Assembly (NCBI RefSeq): GCF_902150025.1
Contig: NZ_CABFVS010000011.1
Span: 1 to 64,000 of the forward strand
Length of the DNA stretch: 64,000 bases
DNA from: Bartonella massiliensis
Lineage (GTDB): Bacteria; Pseudomonadota; Alphaproteobacteria; Rhizobiales; Rhizobiaceae
Direction: 5' to 3'
The stretch's first letter is position 1; each line of letters starts with the position of its first letter. Below, in pieces: positions 1-7,923 of the stretch. The position numbers and the translations under genes are program-made. Below the pieces are notes generated by a model that saw only the letters and a list, made by a program, of their open reading frames with translations, had not been told where the DNA came from and did not search any database.

Positions 1-141
1 CTCTTTTGAAAAAATTATCAGCTTTTTTAGCATTTTTCTGCATTTTTTCTCATTTCATTCAAAACGTATTTAATAAGCTTCATTTCGATTCTTTTGAAAA
101 GAATTAATTCGTAGAATATTTTGTCATGGAGTTTATTCTTT

Positions 142-3100
142 ATGCTTCGCTCTCACAAATCTAATCATGAACACGTCTCTTTACGCTCTCTGTTGGACTA
201 TTATCGTCAACGAGCAAAATCACCCCGTGAATTGGGAACTCTGTTTGAAAATCTTGTGAAGGATTATCTGTCTGAAGACCCATTACAAAAGCAAGAATAC
301 GAAAAGGTTCAAACCTATTTGGAATGGGCTAACGAGCATGATGAAGATGGGCGTGATATTGGCATTGATCTGGTCGCTACAATCCGTGATGACGGCGGCT
401 ATGCGGCTATTCAATGTAAATGCTATGATGCTTCTCACATCATTAAAAAAGAAGATATTGATAGTTTTATCGCTGCCTCTGGCAAAAAGATCTTCACACG
501 TCGCATACTGGTTGATAGCACTGAAAGCAATTGGAGTGATAATGCGAACAACACATGTGATGGTCAAGAGGTTCGTATTCAACAGATTAATCTGTTTGAT
601 TTAGAAAACAGTCAAATTGATTGGGGGGCTTATAAAGAAAAAGGACAAGCCGTCCTTAAAGAGCAACCGAAAAAAAAGCTTTTAGATCATCAGAAAGAAG
701 CACTGAAAGCTATTTGTGAAGGTTTAAAAGAAGCAGACCGTGGCAAGCTTATTATGGCATGTGGTACGGGGAAAACGTTTACTAGCCTTAAAATAGCAGA
801 AACTCTCGCCGGAAAAGGCAAGCGTGTGTTGTTTTTAGTCCCTTCTCTTGCTTTGATGTCACAAACAATCCGTGAATGGACCATTGATACAGAAATCCCT
901 TTGCGTTCCTTTGCGGTGTGTTCGGATACACAAGTAGGCAAGCGTCGTAAAGGGAAACATGATGATGAATCTGGTCTTGATGCTTCTGATCTTGTTTTGC
1001 CCGCTACCACGGATTCACAAGAGCTTGCACGTAAAGCCAATAAAACCTCTCTTGATGTGATGACCGTCATCTTTTCGACTTACCATTCCATTCAAGTGAT
1101 TTCCGATGCGCAAAGAGAGCATGGATTACCCGAGTTTGATCTGATCATTTGTGATGAAGCCCATAGGACGACGGGGGTTGTATTGGGAACAGACAAGCAT
1201 GAATCTGAATTTATCAAGGTTCATGACAACAGCATCATTGGCGGCAAAAAACGTCTATATATGACAGCAACGCCTAAGATCTTTGCTGACAATGCTAAAA
1301 AACAAGCTCATGAAATGAATGGCATTCTGGCGTCTATGGATGATGAAGCGCTTTATGGAAAAGAGCTTTACACCTATACATTCTCAAAAGCCGTCCAGAA
1401 TGAACTCTTAGTCCCTTATAAGATTATTATCTTGGGTGTTAATGAAGAGGAAGTGAGTGAATCCATTCAACATCTGATGACCGATGAGAATTATGAACTT
1501 ATCCTTGATGATAAGACTAAGATTATAGGCTGTTATCAAGCTCTGAGTAAAATAGATCTGAAAGTTGATTTGAGTGATGACCCCAAGCCTATGCGGCGGG
1601 CTTTGGCTTTTTGTAAAGATATCCAGACCTCTGAACGTATCCGTGATACATTTAACTCTCAAGACATACAGAAAGAACTATTAAATCTTCATAAGCTCTA
1701 TAAAGAAACGCCGCCTCTTCAATGTACCTTTGCGCATATTGATGGAACACAAAGTGCCAAGAAACGTAACGAAGCTCTTGATTGGTTAAAGGAAGATGCG
1801 GGGGAGCATACGTGTCGTGTGTTGACCAATGTGCGCTGCCTATCTGAAGGTGTCGATGTTCCTGCTCTTGATGCGATTATGTTTTTACACCCGCGCAAAA
1901 GCCAAGTGGATGTGATACAGGCGGTGGGGCGTATTATGCGTCGTTCCAAAGGCAAGAAGAGAGGTTATATCATTTTACCCGTTGGGGTACCTGCTGGGGT
2001 TTCTGCTGAAGAGGTTTTAAAATACAACAAGAGATACAGTGTTGTCTGGCAAGTGATCAATGCGTTGCTTTCCCATGATGAGAACTTTGAAGTAACCCTT
2101 AATCAGATGATTTTAGGTCAAGATGTTAGTCATACTTTAGAGATTGCTGCCTTAAAGAGTATGACGACGGTTGAAGATAAACTCTATGTTTATGAGAAAC
2201 CAGAAAGCACGGGTCTTGATATTGGAAAAGCAGCTTATGAACCACAACGCTATATTCATAGCGTAACCGGAAGATTACCTTTTTATAAAGAGTTTCCCAA
2301 TGCCCTTAAAACCCTTTTGGCTAAGAAATTTACTCTTGCGGATTATTGGGGCATATGGGCTAGCAATGTTGCTGAGATTGCACAAAACCATATCAATCAT
2401 CTTAAAGATGTCCTATCCGATGAAACCAGTGAAGCCTATCATGCCTTTGATGCATTCCATAAGGAATTAAAAAACAACTTAAACAGTGAAATCAAACAAG
2501 AGGAAGCGCTTGAGATGTTAGGACAACATCTTGTGACGCGCCCCGTGTTTGAAGCTTTGTTTGACGGCAATGAATTTGTGCAAAACAATGCCATTTCACA
2601 AGCCATGGAAAAGATTTTAGCTGAGTTGGATAAAACCAATATCAAGCAAGTCTCTAAAGAATTACAAGAGTTTTATGACAGCGTAAAATTCCGTGCCTCT
2701 GGAATTACAACCTCCCAAGCAAGACAGAACCTTATTATCAAACTTTATGAAGATTTTTTTACCAAGGCATTTAAGAAAACCACGGATAGGCTTGGGATTG
2801 TTTATACCCCCGTTGAGATTGTTGATTTTATTATTCACTCTGTTGATGATGTCTTACGCAATGAATTTGGCAAAAGTCTAGGATCACGGGGTGTCTCTAT
2901 TCTTGACCCTTTTACGGGTACAGGTACCTTTATCACACGGTTGTTACAATCCAATCTCATAAAACCAGAAGATATGGAATATAAGTTCCGTCATGATATT
3001 CATGCTAATGAGATTGTTCTCTTAGCTTATTACATAGCCGCCATTAACATTGAATCGACTTATCATAGTCTTATGAAAGGAGAGTATATTCCCTTTAAGC

Positions 3101-5106
3101 ATATTGGTTTAACCGATACGTTTCGGATGTTGGAAGAGAGAAATCTGCTACAAAAATTATTTAAAGAGAACAGTGAATATTTAGAACACCAGAAAAAACT
3201 GAATATTGAAGTTATCTTTGGTAACCCCCCTTATTCGGTTGGACAAAAAAACGCTAATGATAATGCAAAGAATACTCCTTATCCTATTTTAGATAAACGT
3301 ATCAATGAAACTTATGCTGCTCAATCAAAAGCAGTGAATATGCGAAATTTTTATGATAGTTATATCCGCGCTATTCGCTGGGCTAGTGATCGGATTGATA
3401 ATGCTGGGGTAATTGGTTTTGTCACAAATGCCGGTTTTATCAATGGAAGTTCTATGGACGGTTTACGCAAATGCCTTGTTGAGGAATTTAGCAGCCTTTA
3501 TATTTTCCATTTACGAGGTAATCAACGAACTTCTGGAGAACTTTCTCGAAAAGAAGGTGGTAAGATTTTTGGAGAAGGTTCTCGGGCGCCTATCGCTATT
3601 TCTATTCTCGTAAAAAATCCAGAATTTCAACAGCGTGGAAAAATATATTTCCGTGATATTGGAGATTACCTTAAAAGAGAAGAAAAGCTTACGATAATCG
3701 AGACCCTTGGTAGTATTGATGGTATTACACGTAAGCAAGGTTGGCAAATGATTACACCAGACAAGCATGGTGATTGGCTTGGTCAACGTGATGACAGTTT
3801 TAATGCTTTCTTAGCTATAGGTGATAAAAAGGCTGATAATAAAAAGCTATTCGACACTTTTTCTCTTAGTGTTATAACCAGTCGTGATGCTTGGGCTTAT
3901 AACTCAAGCTGTGAATTTCTCGCAAAAAATATGAGGAATATGATTGCCTTTTATAACAGCGAAGTAGAACGCTTTAATAATGCTTATCTACATGCTGACC
4001 GTAAAACACGCGCAAATGCTGTAAATGATTTTGTCAATGCAGATAGAAAAAAAATCAGTTGGAGCAATAATGTTAAGCAAGAATTAGTCAGAGGAAAGTT
4101 TTTTGAGTTTGAAAATGCATGCCTTATTCAAAGTCTTTATCGTCCCTTTACAAAGCAATGGCTCTATTATGATAGAATCTTTAATGAAATGGTTGCCAAA
4201 ATACCGCATATATTTCCTATGGAGCAAGCGGTTGAAAATAGAATAATACAAATTTCTTCTGTAGGAGCAAGAAGTGGTTTTTCTGTTCTTATGACGAAGA
4301 ATTTGCCCGATTTTAATATGATGGATGGTGGTGGTCAATGTTTCCCAAGATATTTTTATGAAGATACTGAATCCTTAAAAAATAAAAAACAAACTCATTT
4401 ATTTTTAATTTCTACAGAGGAAAGGAACAGTGCTGGTTTACAGAGACGTGATGCCATTACGGATGAAGGGCTAGATTATTTTAAAGCGGCTTATCCTAAT
4501 GAAAAAATCACGAAAGATGATCTATTCTATTATGTTTACGGTTTACTTCATTCAGAAGATTATCGTGCCCGTTATGCTCATAATTTATGCAAAGAATTAC
4601 CTCGTATCCCTTGTGTAAAAACTGCTGATGATTTTTGGAAATTTGTTACAGCAGGACGTGAATTAGGTCATTTACACGTGAATTATGAAGATGTGGAACC
4701 TTATCCAGTCACATTTAAAAAAGGCAATCCAAAATTAACTGATATCTCTAATCTTGAGAAATTTTACTATGTTACAGAAATGAAATTCGCAAAAATTAAG
4801 AATAGTAAGGAAAAGGATAAAACAACGGTTATTTACAACAGCAACATCACAATGACAGATATCCCTCTAGAGGCTTATGACTATATCGTCAATGGTAGGC
4901 CTGCTCTTGAATGGGTTATGGGGCGTCAATGTGTAAAAACAGATAAAAAGAGTGGTATTGTTAATGATGCCAATCGCTATGCTGTTGAGACCGTTGGAAA
5001 CCCTGCATACCCTCTAGAATTGTTTCAAAGGGTTATTACCGTAAGTTTAGAGACAATGAAAATCGTTAAGAACTTACCAAAATTAGAACTTAAAGAAACT
5101 GAATAG
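142..5106 (+). CDS. Type ISP-like single-polypeptide restriction-modification enzyme (nuclease-helicase-methyltransferase)
   Basis: Predicted to cut unmodified DNA after ATP-driven translocation and to protect host sites by N6-adenine methylation, all in one chain of 1654 aa (LlaGI/LlaBIII-like enzymes are of similar size). Domains seen in order: an Mrr-like nuclease (D76 and Q91-C-K93); an SF2 helicase with GTGKT 208-212, DEAH 338-341, TATP 375-378 and motif VI QAVGRIMRR 593-601; an adenine methyltransferase with DPFTGTGTF 922-930 and NPPY 1028-1031; then about 550 residues that should hold the target-recognition region. I chose ATG 142 because GGAG at 128-131 lies 10 nt upstream. A TTG at 121 would add seven residues. 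No frameshift is visible and all core motifs are present, so it may be active. No separate specificity or methylase gene lies nearby, as expected for a self-contained enzyme. The neighbouring prophage-like genes suggest horizontal acquisition. The family call is firm; the recognition site is unknown. Confidence 0.9.
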   Translation: MLRSHKSNHEHVSLRSLLDYYRQRAKSPRELGTLFENLVKDYLSEDPLQKQEYEKVQTYLEWANEHDEDGRDIGIDLVATIRDDGGYAAIQCKCYDASHIIKKEDIDSFIAASGKKIFTRRILVDSTESNWSDNANNTCDGQEVRIQQINLFDLENSQIDWGAYKEKGQAVLKEQPKKKLLDHQKEALKAICEGLKEADRGKLIMACGTGKTFTSLKIAETLAGKGKRVLFLVPSLALMSQTIREWTIDTEIPLRSFAVCSDTQVGKRRKGKHDDESGLDASDLVLPATTDSQELARKANKTSLDVMTVIFSTYHSIQVISDAQREHGLPEFDLIICDEAHRTTGVVLGTDKHESEFIKVHDNSIIGGKKRLYMTATPKIFADNAKKQAHEMNGILASMDDEALYGKELYTYTFSKAVQNELLVPYKIIILGVNEEEVSESIQHLMTDENYELILDDKTKIIGCYQALSKIDLKVDLSDDPKPMRRALAFCKDIQTSERIRDTFNSQDIQKELLNLHKLYKETPPLQCTFAHIDGTQSAKKRNEALDWLKEDAGEHTCRVLTNVRCLSEGVDVPALDAIMFLHPRKSQVDVIQAVGRIMRRSKGKKRGYIILPVGVPAGVSAEEVLKYNKRYSVVWQVINALLSHDENFEVTLNQMILGQDVSHTLEIAALKSMTTVEDKLYVYEKPESTGLDIGKAAYEPQRYIHSVTGRLPFYKEFPNALKTLLAKKFTLADYWGIWASNVAEIAQNHINHLKDVLSDETSEAYHAFDAFHKELKNNLNSEIKQEEALEMLGQHLVTRPVFEALFDGNEFVQNNAISQAMEKILAELDKTNIKQVSKELQEFYDSVKFRASGITTSQARQNLIIKLYEDFFTKAFKKTTDRLGIVYTPVEIVDFIIHSVDDVLRNEFGKSLGSRGVSILDPFTGTGTFITRLLQSNLIKPEDMEYKFRHDIHANEIVLLAYYIAAINIESTYHSLMKGEYIPFKHIGLTDTFRMLEERNLLQKLFKENSEYLEHQKKLNIEVIFGNPPYSVGQKNANDNAKNTPYPILDKRINETYAAQSKAVNMRNFYDSYIRAIRWASDRIDNAGVIGFVTNAGFINGSSMDGLRKCLVEEFSSLYIFHLRGNQRTSGELSRKEGGKIFGEGSRAPIAISILVKNPEFQQRGKIYFRDIGDYLKREEKLTIIETLGSIDGITRKQGWQMITPDKHGDWLGQRDDSFNAFLAIGDKKADNKKLFDTFSLSVITSRDAWAYNSSCEFLAKNMRNMIAFYNSEVERFNNAYLHADRKTRANAVNDFVNADRKKISWSNNVKQELVRGKFFEFENACLIQSLYRPFTKQWLYYDRIFNEMVAKIPHIFPMEQAVENRIIQISSVGARSGFSVLMTKNLPDFNMMDGGGQCFPRYFYEDTESLKNKKQTHLFLISTEERNSAGLQRRDAITDEGLDYFKAAYPNEKITKDDLFYYVYGLLHSEDYRARYAHNLCKELPRIPCVKTADDFWKFVTAGRELGHLHVNYEDVEPYPVTFKKGNPKLTDISNLEKFYYVTEMKFAKIKNSKEKDKTTVIYNSNITMTDIPLEAYDYIVNGRPALEWVMGRQCVKTDKKSGIVNDANRYAVETVGNPAYPLELFQRVITVSLETMKIVKNLPKLELKETE

Positions 5107-5130
5107 ACTTATAAGACCTTATAACTCATA

Positions 5131-5171
5131 AGGGGTATAGGATATAGCTATTATAATCTATACCTCTTTTG
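5131..5171 (+). terminator. Probable rho-independent terminator of the restriction-modification gene
   Basis: A 10-bp stem with one G-U pair is formed by 5131-5140 and 5158-5167, with a 17-nt loop, followed by a short T run. It lies 24 nt after the stop codon. The long loop and short T run make it moderate in quality. Confidence 0.5.
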
Positions 5172-6065
5172 TAAGTTGATTAGATACAATCTTAAAAGAA
5201 GTGTTTATATGTGTTATTCTAAAAAAAGAAGCTTTGCACTTTTAGACACATTTATTTTGATTACCTTTAAGAGGTTATGTCCTAATCTCAAATGATAGCT
5301 TTATCCTTTTTAAAAGTTTTGTTTAAAGAGAGATTTGTATATTCATTTTTCTTATAGATTTTGAAGGTTTCTCAAACTCTCAAAATACCTTCAAAAATAT
5401 ACTATGGGTTGTTTTTTAGGTTGTGTTGTCGATATAAGTTGTATCATTAAAATACTAACATATTGAAATATAATAACTTTTATTTTTGATTAAAAAATAT
5501 ATAGAAAGGGGGGGCTAAAAAGAACTGACAAAACTGACAAGACTGACAAAAGTCTATTAAAAGGGATTTTGCTCATCTCTATAATTAGCAATCTCTCTTT
5601 AGATGCTTTCATAACAAGCTATAAATCACAATTATCCTATTTATAATCTCTCTTATGAAAATGAAAAATAATGCGGTGGCTATAAAAATTATAACAGCTA
5701 TAAAGCACGCGTGAAAAACGCAGGCTTTCATAATCAAAATACAAATGAAAGCATTGGTTATAAAGACAGTTCCTATAAAAGGCTGTTAAGTTGCAAATGT
5801 GTTATTAAAAGAAATTAACAGAAATCTTTAAAACCATTTAGTAAAAAACATGATAGGTTATAAAGTTAAAAATACGCATGATGAGAGCGTTTCTAAATAT
5901 TATAAATGTATAGATTCAAAAAATAACGCAATCGCTTAATAAAACCCATAATATAGCTTTAAAAGCATATAATAAAAAAGAAGCAATTAATAATCATATT
6001 ATAAATATTTGCACACAATGCATTTAAAAAAATCATAAAAAATATCAAAAAAGATAAAATATTAT
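5172..6065. other. Gene-free AT-rich spacer with a short tandem repeat
   Basis: No coding region is supported here. A tandem array of a 9-mer (AACTGACAA twice, then GACTGACAA) lies at 5523-5549. The rest is AT-rich, with only very short open frames lacking ribosome-binding sites. Confidence 0.5.
5523..5549. repeat. Three tandem 9-bp units (AACTGACAA-like)
   Basis: Two perfect units and one unit with a single change stand directly head to tail. Short iterated words like this can be protein-binding sites, such as replication iterons or operators. Nothing nearby shows which, so the function is unknown. Confidence 0.6.
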
Positions 6066-6095
6066 TTGACAATAAATACGTATTTTGATTATATA
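6066..6095 (+). promoter_or_regulatory. Candidate sigma-70 promoter upstream of the c4-like leader
   Basis: A perfect TTGACA at 6066-6071 is followed after 18 nt by TATATA at 6090-6095. Transcription from here would read through the structured leader into the hexapeptide-repeat gene at 6342. A second -10-like TATAAT lies at 6197-6202, just before the folded region, with only a poor -35 match. Confidence 0.45.
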
Positions 6096-6204
6096 AATAA
6101 TCAAGTGATTAAAAACACTAAATCGTAAGCGGTTAAACCACGTAAGGTTTTTCCCATTCTTAGAAATACTGGCTGTCTTTTATGTTATAATTAGCATATA
6201 ATGA

Positions 6205-6333
6205 CTCTGTCGGGTGTGCTTATACCATACAATACCCTTCGCGAGGGAAAAGTATAAGCAACGGACTTACGACCGTGTTTTTAGCGCCCGATGCCCTTAT
6301 AGGGTGTCAATTAAAAACTCTAATTTCGTAAGG
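6205..6333 (+). ncRNA. c4-antisense-RNA-like structured leader
   Basis: The sequence folds into a three-way junction. P1 pairs 6210-6217 with 6284-6291 (8 bp, two G-U). P2 pairs 6218-6225 with 6252-6259 (8 bp, perfect) and is capped by a CCCTT/GAGGG hairpin at 6235-6247. P3 pairs 6261-6264 with 6273-6276. The P3 loop CTTACGA (6266-6272) is perfectly complementary to TCGTAAG (6326-6332), which overlaps the ribosome-binding site of the downstream gene. ATACCCT (6232-6238) can pair with AGGGTGT (6301-6307), which otherwise sits in a second hairpin at 6290-6308. Two loop segments pairing with two downstream segments is the known a'/b'-a/b arrangement of phage P1/P7 c4 RNA. The pairing is seen directly; the family assignment is from memory and no covariance search was run. 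Confidence 0.6.
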
Positions 6334-6341
6334 TTTTAAAT

Positions 6342-7049
6342 ATGACAAATGTCTCAAAAAACACCTCCGTTATTTCTTCCATTTCAAATGAAACCGCTTC
6401 TGTTAATAAACAAGAGCCTGCAAAAAAATACGAATTTATTGATGATTGTGAATATATAGATGGTCATTTCTTAAAGCGAATTAGAGCTTTAAGAGATTTT
6501 GATGATGTCAAAAAAGGCGACCTCGGGGGGTATATTGAAAGTGAAGATAACCTTTCTCATGATGGCAATTGCTGGGTTTATGATAAAGCACGCGTCTTTC
6601 AAAATGCTAGGGTTTTTGAGAATGCTAAAATAAAAAGCTTTTTTGTCGATGTTTATGGCAATGCTAAAATTTATGGCAATGCTCATATTGAAAATGCCGT
6701 TATAATTGAAGGTAATGTTAAAATTTATGATAACGCCCGTGTAAGTGGGCATGCGCATATTTCTGATGAGACTGTCATTTGTGATAATGCTCATGTCGGT
6801 GGCAATGCAAAAATAAGTGATGGTGCTTATATATGTGATTATTCTCAAGTTTATGATGATGCGGTTGTATGTGGTGCTCTTGTCTCTGGCGATTCTTATA
6901 TTCATAGCGCCGCCTCTTTAACTTCTGATGATCAAATTCATGATGAGGCAATTCCAAGATTTGGTAGTAAAGATGATTATTATCGTCATGAATATTATGA
7001 TGATTATGGCTATGATGATGACAGCGCATATGAAAATGACGCTGCTTAA
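6342..7049 (+). CDS. Prophage-type hexapeptide-repeat (left-handed beta-helix) protein 1
   Basis: A 235-aa protein of the YdcK-like group often found in prophages; the biochemical role is unknown. Residues 1-28 are a polar lead. Residues 29-80 form the conserved cap, with RIRALRDF at 46-53, LGGYIE at 61-66 and NLSHDGNCWVY at 70-80. About 80-200 are repeated six-residue turns of the form x-G-N-A-x-[IV], typical of a left-handed beta helix. The tail from about 205 is unusually rich in Asp and Tyr. No catalytic acyltransferase residue was recognised, so it may be structural or binding. The start is fixed by TAAGG at 6329-6333, 8 nt before ATG. That site is the predicted target of the c4-like leader loop, so translation is probably repressed by RNA pairing. 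A strong terminator follows, so it is likely monocistronic. Confidence 0.8.
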   Translation: MTNVSKNTSVISSISNETASVNKQEPAKKYEFIDDCEYIDGHFLKRIRALRDFDDVKKGDLGGYIESEDNLSHDGNCWVYDKARVFQNARVFENAKIKSFFVDVYGNAKIYGNAHIENAVIIEGNVKIYDNARVSGHAHISDETVICDNAHVGGNAKISDGAYICDYSQVYDDAVVCGALVSGDSYIHSAASLTSDDQIHDEAIPRFGSKDDYYRHEYYDDYGYDDDSAYENDAA

Positions 7050-7058
7050 ATAAAGCAC

Positions 7059-7084
7059 GGGCGCGGCGGGGGCGCCCCTCTTTT
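7059..7084 (+). terminator. Rho-independent terminator after hexapeptide-repeat gene 1
   Basis: A GC-only 6-bp stem (GGGCGC 7059-7064 with GCGCCC 7072-7077) and a 7-nt loop are followed by CTCTTTT. It is strikingly GC-rich against the AT-rich surroundings. Confidence 0.75.
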
Positions 7085-7143
7085 AAATTTTCCATTCCAA
7101 ATTTTATCCAATGTTTATCACATTAGGTTGTGAGGGTATTCTT

Positions 7144-7923
7144 ATGTCTAAAAAATATGAATTAACCAGCGAAATTAAAAAAATCAAACACGCACGTACT
7201 CGAAATATTATAAATCTTTATCGCATTCGTGCTTTAAAAGATTTTGATGATGTTAAAGCCGGTTCTCTAGGCGGCTTTATTGAAAAGGAAGCTAATCTAT
7301 CCCATGATGGCAATTGCTGGGTTTATGATAATGCTTGTGTCTATGGCTATGCCCATGTCTATAACAATGCAAAAATACGGCATTTTTCTCAAGTATGTGG
7401 TCAAGTCTATGGGAATTGTGAAATCTATGGCAAGGCTTTCATTTCTCAATATGCAAGGGTTTATGACCATGCTTGTGTCTATGGCAATGCCCGTGTTTAT
7501 GGCAATGTTTATGGGTATGCCCATGTAAGTGGGGGTGCTTGCGTTTTTGCTGATGCTCATATTCATGATCATGCTCATGTTTCTTATGATGCTACGGTTT
7601 TTAATTATGCAAGGGTCTATGGTCGTGCCATTGTTGCTGGCTCGGCTCGTATTCATAGCTATGCCGAGGTTTATAATTATGCCCTTATTAATGGTCGTGC
7701 AAAAATACATGGCAAGGTCTATGGCGGTGCTTTGGTGGGTGGTTGTGCTGAGATTTATGGCTCTGTTTTTGGCAATGCCAAGGTTTTATTCTATACCAAG
7801 GTCTGGGGTCGCGCTTATGGCAATGCGAAATTAACCAAGAAAAGCAAAGTAAGGGAAGTTCCTATAAATTATGAAGTTTATGAAAGCGATAATCTTGTAA
7901 AGATTGTTGATGAAATAGAATAA
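7144..7923 (+). CDS. Prophage-type hexapeptide-repeat (left-handed beta-helix) protein 2
   Basis: A 259-aa paralogue of the preceding gene. It shares the cap words RIRALKDFDDVK, SLGGFIE and NLSHDGNCWVYDNA. The repeat region is longer, with many Y-G-N-A-x-V turns reaching nearly to the C terminus, and the acidic tail is absent. The start is placed at ATG 7144, where GAGGG at 7132-7136 gives 7-nt spacing. An upstream ATG at 7111 has no ribosome-binding site and would add 11 residues. It has its own terminator and no c4-like leader, so the two paralogues are probably regulated differently. Function is unknown; beta-helix repeat proteins of this type occur widely in temperate phages. Confidence 0.78.
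   Translation: MSKKYELTSEIKKIKHARTRNIINLYRIRALKDFDDVKAGSLGGFIEKEANLSHDGNCWVYDNACVYGYAHVYNNAKIRHFSQVCGQVYGNCEIYGKAFISQYARVYDHACVYGNARVYGNVYGYAHVSGGACVFADAHIHDHAHVSYDATVFNYARVYGRAIVAGSARIHSYAEVYNYALINGRAKIHGKVYGGALVGGCAEIYGSVFGNAKVLFYTKVWGRAYGNAKLTKKSKVREVPINYEVYESDNLVKIVDEIE

Follow-up and report, generated by a model that had tools for sequence, protein, structure and literature searches.

The C4 RNAs of phages P1 and P7 (Rfam RF01695) fold into a three-way junction in which one antisense segment, b', lies in the loop of helix P3 and faces a ribosome-binding site, and a second, a', lies in the strand joining P3 to P1. Their targets occur both upstream (a1b1) and downstream (a2b2) of the junction, their helix P2 is a short tetraloop hairpin and the genes they control form an antirepressor operon. 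C4 is described as being processed by RNase P to ~77 nt and as active in trans, and many-copy C4-derived sRNAs are known from Acinetobacter (PMC5320573).

Two other RNA families enter the comparison. The first, sRNA-Xcc1 (RF02221), has been described in print as an sRNA that acts in trans, has many predicted targets and stands under virulence regulators. It is a discrete RNA of 88 nt with mapped ends (PMC2996969) and is often found on integron cassettes (PMC12444791). Keyed pairing of sRNA-Xcc1 with its own leader is not described in the literature text examined (PMC2996969, PMC12189769, PMC12444791). The second, Brt, has been published as a set of multi-copy Bartonella leaders of XRE genes, 194-203 nt in length, acting as riboswitch and trans-acting sRNA (PMC5387305); the riboswitch is described as heme-responsive and has been linked in print to control of badA. 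When the 3' stem-loop of a Brt-like XRE leader is deleted, transcription of trp1 goes up, and an effect of heme is also reported (PMC8070961). The Rfam names of sRNA-Xcc1 and C4 stand side by side as annotations in one paper (PMC12189769), and a literature search found no paper joining sRNA-Xcc1 or Brt to C4.

The element considered here lies near the start of the window, that is, the whole stretch of 64,000 nucleotides of Bartonella massiliensis DNA that was analysed. Positions 121-7923 hold a type ISP restriction enzyme, with a Type_ISP_C match, then a leader with antisense segments, or keys, and then beta-solenoid genes. The first-pass annotation had proposed a c4-like leader that sequesters the start of a hexapeptide-repeat gene beside a restriction system; the restriction gene lies upstream of a YdcK-like gene. 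The features are as follows.

6066-6095, + strand: possible promoter, weak, read from the sequence (TTGACA at 6066-6071, a spacer of 18, TATATA at 6090-6095).
6110-6116, + strand: a1, upstream copy of target a (TAAAAAC).
6123-6129, + strand: b1, upstream copy of target b (TCGTAAG).
6208-6293, + strand: three-way-junction RNA, with P1 at 6208-6216/6285-6293, P2 at 6218-6225/6252-6259 and P3 at 6261-6264/6273-6276 (folding, RF02221 match, covariation and RNAalifold).
6266-6272, + strand: key b' in the P3 loop (CTTACGA; co-changes with its targets).
6277-6283, + strand: key a' in the P3-P1 junction strand, J3/1 (GTTTTTA; co-changes with its targets).
6312-6318, + strand: a2, downstream target a (TAAAAAC).
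6326-6332, + strand: b2, downstream target b (TCGTAAG), overlapping an AAGG Shine-Dalgarno sequence.
6342-7049, + strand: cargo gene, 235 aa, a YdcK-like beta-solenoid with hexapeptide repeats (Pfam B_solenoid_ydck and Hexapep).
7059-7081, + strand: terminator-like hairpin 3' of the cargo gene (4 terminator-like sites against 1.0 expected from shuffles, all of them here).

The order a1b1, a'b', a2b2 gives the whole element an extent of about 6110 to 6344. A transcript from the possible promoter would begin just 5' of a1; a consensus scan found no promoter at 6066-6095, where one is needed. The AAGG overlapped by b2 belongs to the ORF starting at 6342. The product of this ORF matches phrog_5070 and phrog_7964, both PHROGs of unknown function. 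It is predicted to be a beta-solenoid, confidently so in the core, where the AlphaFold pLDDT exceeds 90, and its nearest solved structure is YdcK. A second beta-solenoid paralogue (7144-7923) follows beyond the terminator-like hairpin and, on reading, has no keyed leader of its own. Short tandem-like ACTGACAA repeats occur at 5520-5555, within the degenerate DNA that separates the restriction gene from the leader.

The same gene order is found on the Bartonella tribocorum plasmid pBT01. Here the ISP enzyme is 84% identical to that of the window over the 283 residues compared. Four genes follow the leader (L411), which has all four segments, and the first of them is 43% identical to the window cargo. 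As the neighbourhood recurs on a plasmid, the window cargo is to be regarded as mobile-element cargo.

The junction folds as the first-pass annotation had claimed, into helices P1, P2 and P3, of which P2 encloses a further helix of three pairs. Folding of the single sequence gives modest support: the minimum free energy of 6205-6345 is -37.4 kcal/mol (z -2.2), and 8 of 200 shuffles were equally low. The comparative support is strong. In an alignment of 45 distinct cores, taken from the 112 Bartonella copies described below, the 22 pairs are formed in 99.8% of cases, and both partners have changed in 61 cells against a shuffled mean of 18.6, a figure that none of 500 shuffles reached. Sliding the partner columns by 1-3 positions lowers the pairing to 32.5-51.1%. 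RNAalifold returns approximately the same structure. The covariation in P1-P3 that had been proposed as a check is thus present.

Membership of the Rfam C4 family is another matter. The C4 model, whose use had been suggested as a check, has no match anywhere in the genome at E<=10, and none is found among the matches at that threshold in 5900-6500; at gathering thresholds nothing in Rfam matches the window. A permissive search found RF02221 instead, at 6209-6300, with 42 bits (E = 5e-06) and the full model, 1-87 of 87, covered. The gathering score of RF02221 is 53 bits, so that the window copy falls below it. Eight further RF02221 matches occur in the same genome, one of them above the gathering score at 55.6 bits (G000:C56:11641-11771), and this sister copy shares 81% identity with that of the window across the region matched (E = 1.3e-22). 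The junction, which is the same across the full model, and the sister copies that match it place the two RNAs together: judged by sequence, the window RNA is a divergent relative of sRNA-Xcc1 and homologous to it. The wider family occurs widely: at E<=0.001, 47 of 385 genomes sampled from the class have a match, 8 of them above the cut-off, and at E<=0.0001 so do 55 of 398 from the phylum, 40 of them above it. A search by DNA similarity detected the window leader itself in 25 of 61 genomes, the 25 all belonging to a single genus.

The pairing at the locus is exact. The P3 loop, 6266-6272, is complementary to the ribosome-binding site, 6326-6332, at 7 of 7 bases, as first noted. The annotation had spoken of two loop segments and two downstream segments. 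The P3 loop is one of them, but the second antisense segment is the junction strand, 6277-6283, which pairs with 6312-6318, and not the P2 loop; among the Bartonella copies the P2 loop, as a candidate second segment, gave only 2 of 112 own matches of at least 7, with 1.1% for swapped targets. The segments are so ordered and oriented that b'/b and a'/a can form jointly as one interrupted duplex. Its predicted energy is -17.0 kcal/mol with a1b1, -5.4 with a coding stretch and -12.1 with a2b2, this last value not being extreme, as mononucleotide shuffling of the target gave values as low in 3 of 500 cases, the lowest reaching -13.2.

The upstream copies of the targets, 6110-6116 and 6123-6129, were absent from the earlier account, and because the targets recur upstream the layout resembles P1 c4 more closely than was first noted. 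P1 c4 was fetched as a positive control and put through the same comparison. Its b' has matches at -68 and +29 and its a' at -82 and 0, the same four-segment layout. P1 c4 matches RF01695 and not RF02221, and the P1 a1b1 targets correspond to RF03163. The window RNA thus has the P1-P2-P3 junction of C4, a b' that faces a downstream ribosome-binding site, a target for a' and an upstream a1b1, and many of its sister copies precede antirepressors. It differs in its lack of an Rfam C4 match, in its P2, where the tetraloop hairpin gives way to a long loop containing a conserved AUACAAUACC-like motif, and in its own cargo, a beta-solenoid gene and not an antirepressor operon.

Copies of the element were collected from Bartonella and from other taxa. 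Those from Bartonella came from loci of the own-genome and 61-genome searches with 80 further DNA matches, a subset of the matches, and those from other taxa from the class and phylum RF02221 surveys with 60 further matches. Of 245 parses, which for L030 and L031 covered both strands, 16 were removed because P1 was weak, P3 was missing or the sequence was short. Collapsing identical copies left 220 distinct ones, 114 from the genus and 106 from other Pseudomonadota. Two genus parses without a loop anchor were set aside (the wrong-strand L030 and L163), leaving 112. Each key was then set against its own target and, over 200 permutations, against those of other copies, a match being a run of at least 7 Watson-Crick pairs.

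The keys and targets change together. In Bartonella, b' matches its own downstream target in 104 of 112 copies against a permuted mean of 2.7% (highest 7.3%), and its upstream target in 101 of 111 (3.7% when swapped). For a' the figures are 97 of 112 downstream (10.6%) and 99 of 111 upstream (12.7%). The co-change of 6266-6272 with 6326-6332, a further check proposed at the outset, is therefore found in most of the genus copies. Both b1 and b2 are perfect in 95 of the 112 copies, and 17 are without a perfect b1 or b2. As controls, b' against coding sequence (1/112) and the P2 loop gave background values. In other Pseudomonadota, b' matches upstream in 65 of 105 copies (2.5% swapped) and downstream in 36 of 106 (2.6%), and a' in 63 of 105 (4.8%) and 24 of 106 (3.3%), respectively, counts that are probably conservative as the parser shortened P3 in some of these copies (L213, for example). 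Outside the genus, upstream pairing is therefore commoner than downstream pairing, and fewer than half of the copies have a downstream pair. All six plasmid records that match the leader are from Bartonella, and all four segments with runs of at least 7 were found in each of the three plasmid records fetched. The same was true of three of the four viral contigs checked, in which the leaders were located by reading; the fourth contig is cut off. A DNA search of a phage collection with 6205-6345 gave no match.

Three outcomes had been named in advance as counting against a c4-like RNA: no model hit, no covariation and loop-target pairing that is not conserved. Only the missing model hit was found. 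As regards c4 identity, the C4-like wiring (covariation, co-change and the upstream targets) holds, but membership of the Rfam family does not. The sequence comparisons support the idea of c4 control over a different cargo: by inference, the window RNA would act as an antisense RNA in the manner of C4 while standing outside the Rfam C4 family.

We consider it likely that the leader encodes a C4-type antisense RNA that silences the beta-solenoid gene. A transcript starting from about 6100 would carry a1-b1, then the junction RNA with b' and a', and then a2-b2. The junction RNA would most likely be freed by processing, as in P1, and could act in trans. Co-linear pairing of b' with b2 and of a' with a2 would hide the ribosome-binding site and keep the beta-solenoid gene silent until some cue lifted the repression. 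The identical a1-b1 would be a competing partner that could titrate the junction RNA or set the threshold at which it acts. A private two-part key in each copy would largely insulate paralogous units from one another.

The main rival, which we think unlikely though worth serious attention, is a purely cis-acting leader resembling an attenuator or riboswitch, in which a'b' pairs with either a1b1 or a2b2 within one transcript and a signal shifts the balance without any free RNA. All segments do lie in one leader, the identity of a1b1 and a2b2 fits two mutually exclusive folds, and the effects of the 3' stem-loop deletion and of heme in the Brt-like XRE leader (PMC8070961) are what such a switch might show. 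However, the discrete 88 nt sRNA-Xcc1 (PMC2996969) has the size of the junction alone, and copies outside the genus are often without a downstream target, so an independent RNA must be useful there.

It is very improbable that the repeated 7-mers serve as sites on DNA for a protein or recombinase and not as RNA targets. There are three related sites on the DNA, and integron cassettes are a frequent home of sRNA-Xcc1 (PMC12444791), as such a reading might expect. However, the sites vary freely while their complementarity is kept. A run of at least 5 is present in 109 of 111 copies. In these, positions 3, 4, 5 and 7 of the loop form Watson-Crick pairs only, with all four pair types at 4 and 5, and position 6 forms 107 Watson-Crick pairs, again of all four types, and 2 G-U pairs. 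A protein site would keep its sequence; here b' sits in a hairpin loop and b2 at the ribosome-binding site, its 3' end 8-13 nt 5' of the start codon in most genus copies with a run of at least 6. Chance, or the shared ancestry of A+T-rich leaders with a loop biased towards anti-Shine-Dalgarno sequence, can be dismissed almost entirely: many copies are related and loop positions 1-2 (CU) are almost invariant and pair with the AG of the Shine-Dalgarno sequence, yet target swaps preserve both biases and fall to background, the same holds outside the genus, and kinship does not explain the co-change because for 34 of the 38 distinct keys at least one copy has a perfect match on each side, upstream and downstream.

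These 38 different 7-nt keys are spread over 111 copies in 24 Bartonella genomes. The full two-part key is shared by none of 280 within-genome pairs of copies and by 38 of 5825 between-genome pairs, a difference that is suggestive and not significant. When b' alone is considered, it is identical in 9 of the 280 pairs from one genome and in 165 of the 5825 from different genomes, so that selection for differing keys inside one genome is not demonstrated. One copy in the same genome as the window (L007, G000:C11:203030-203157) has an upstream target that fits its key perfectly (7) and a downstream run of only 4; by its sequence it is a decayed or re-keyed unit.

The genes behind the leaders are varied. 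Among the 112 genus leaders, 62 precede members of the beta-solenoid cluster that includes the window gene, 36 an antirepressor cluster, 10 a small-protein cluster and 4 other or unassigned frames. Two members of the antirepressor cluster were scanned, one with AntA and KilAC and the other with Rha and KilAC, and one small protein matches phrog_33768. Outside the genus, the scanned cargo includes KilA-N, Bro-N, P22_AR_N, Rha and SymE (two scanned) proteins; several of the scanned cargo proteins have no Pfam match. Two leaders outside the genus (L068 and L202, genome G331) stand 5' of long frames with, by eye, an HExxH-type metalloprotease-like stretch, and have keyed pairs to the leader.

The SymE genes deserve separate mention. 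SymE is under RNA control by SymR, which is cis-encoded at symE (PMC12444791; PMC1891008). At three loci outside the genus (L077, L096 and L213), an RNA of sRNA-Xcc1 type lies 5' of SymE-like toxin genes with a and b pairs to the leader. The SymE cluster has five members, three with a and b pairs downstream, one with a only and one with b only. In contrast to SymR, the keyed RNA lies upstream on the same strand and, in three of the five SymE copies, pairs with the leader through both a and b; at these three loci it would be an alternative to SymR. On Xanthomonas integrons, sRNA-Xcc1 is reported upstream of symE and a divergent regulatory mechanism has been suggested (PMC12444791). Keyed pairing is a candidate for that mechanism.

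The comparison with Brt was made on XRE leaders. Of 33 HTH_3 matches, 20 were fetched, together with further loci, and L361-L410 yielded 51 distinct leaders, seven loci being without a parse; they include L361-L376 in the same genome as the window (contigs C4, C7, C9, C10, C30 and C37) and L382-L397 in its relatives. In 36 of the 37 leaders that could be measured, the distance from the first hairpin to the 3' hairpin is 185-196 nt. An XRE-like motif occurs in the next frame of 37 of the 51 by a simple pattern, and HTH_3 was confirmed for L361. Matched by description (PMC5387305, PMC8070961), these are probably the published Brt RNAs. Their P3 loop pairs upstream with a run of at least 7 in 36 of 51 (permuted mean 9.4%, maximum 20.4%), and their junction strand in 35 of 51 (mean 22.6%, maximum 38%). 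A downstream target was found in none of the 51, either for the P3 loop or for the junction. Rfam gave no match in the 13 XRE leader loci scanned.

The Brt-like XRE leaders and the window RNA thus belong to one genus, are multi-copy and have keys in the P3 loop and the junction that co-change with targets lying upstream, but the XRE leaders differ in sequence, in that no downstream target was found and in their XRE cargo. The window RNA is not itself a Brt-type RNA of ~200 nt directly 5' of an XRE/HTH gene, its cargo not being XRE. Window-family sequences have few short, weak matches to the XRE leaders, the best with E = 2.9e-4 over 35 bases, and the notion that Brt RNAs are simply the window RNA family is ruled out, as the leaders differ in sequence although they are alike in wiring. 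Judged from these description-matched leaders, Brt probably carries the a1b1/a'b' half of the C4 layout in a different sequence, and if the XRE leaders are Brt, then Brt would be recast as C4-type.

On balance we lean towards a broader reading, in which mobile DNA of the Pseudomonadota makes general use of C4-type wiring as a control cassette, carried by at least three RNA families (C4, sRNA-Xcc1 and Brt) that are mutually unmatched in Rfam searches, and set with private two-part keys in front of genes for antirepressors, SymE toxins and beta-solenoid proteins and of other cargo. The C4 mechanism is already known; what is new here is the proposed link of C4-type keyed wiring to sRNA-Xcc1 and Brt. 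If the broader reading is true, the Brt 'riboswitch' and the 'trans-acting sRNA' sRNA-Xcc1 would both be C4-type antisense RNAs, and a testable mechanism is offered for two published families that are without one. Where an sRNA-Xcc1 copy has a downstream target, its likely target would be the gene directly behind it. C4-like control would then extend beyond antirepressors, and Bartonella genomes would be banks of keyed switches. The comparison suggests repeated reuse of the phage P1 off-switch for many different mobile-element genes, each time with a key of its own.
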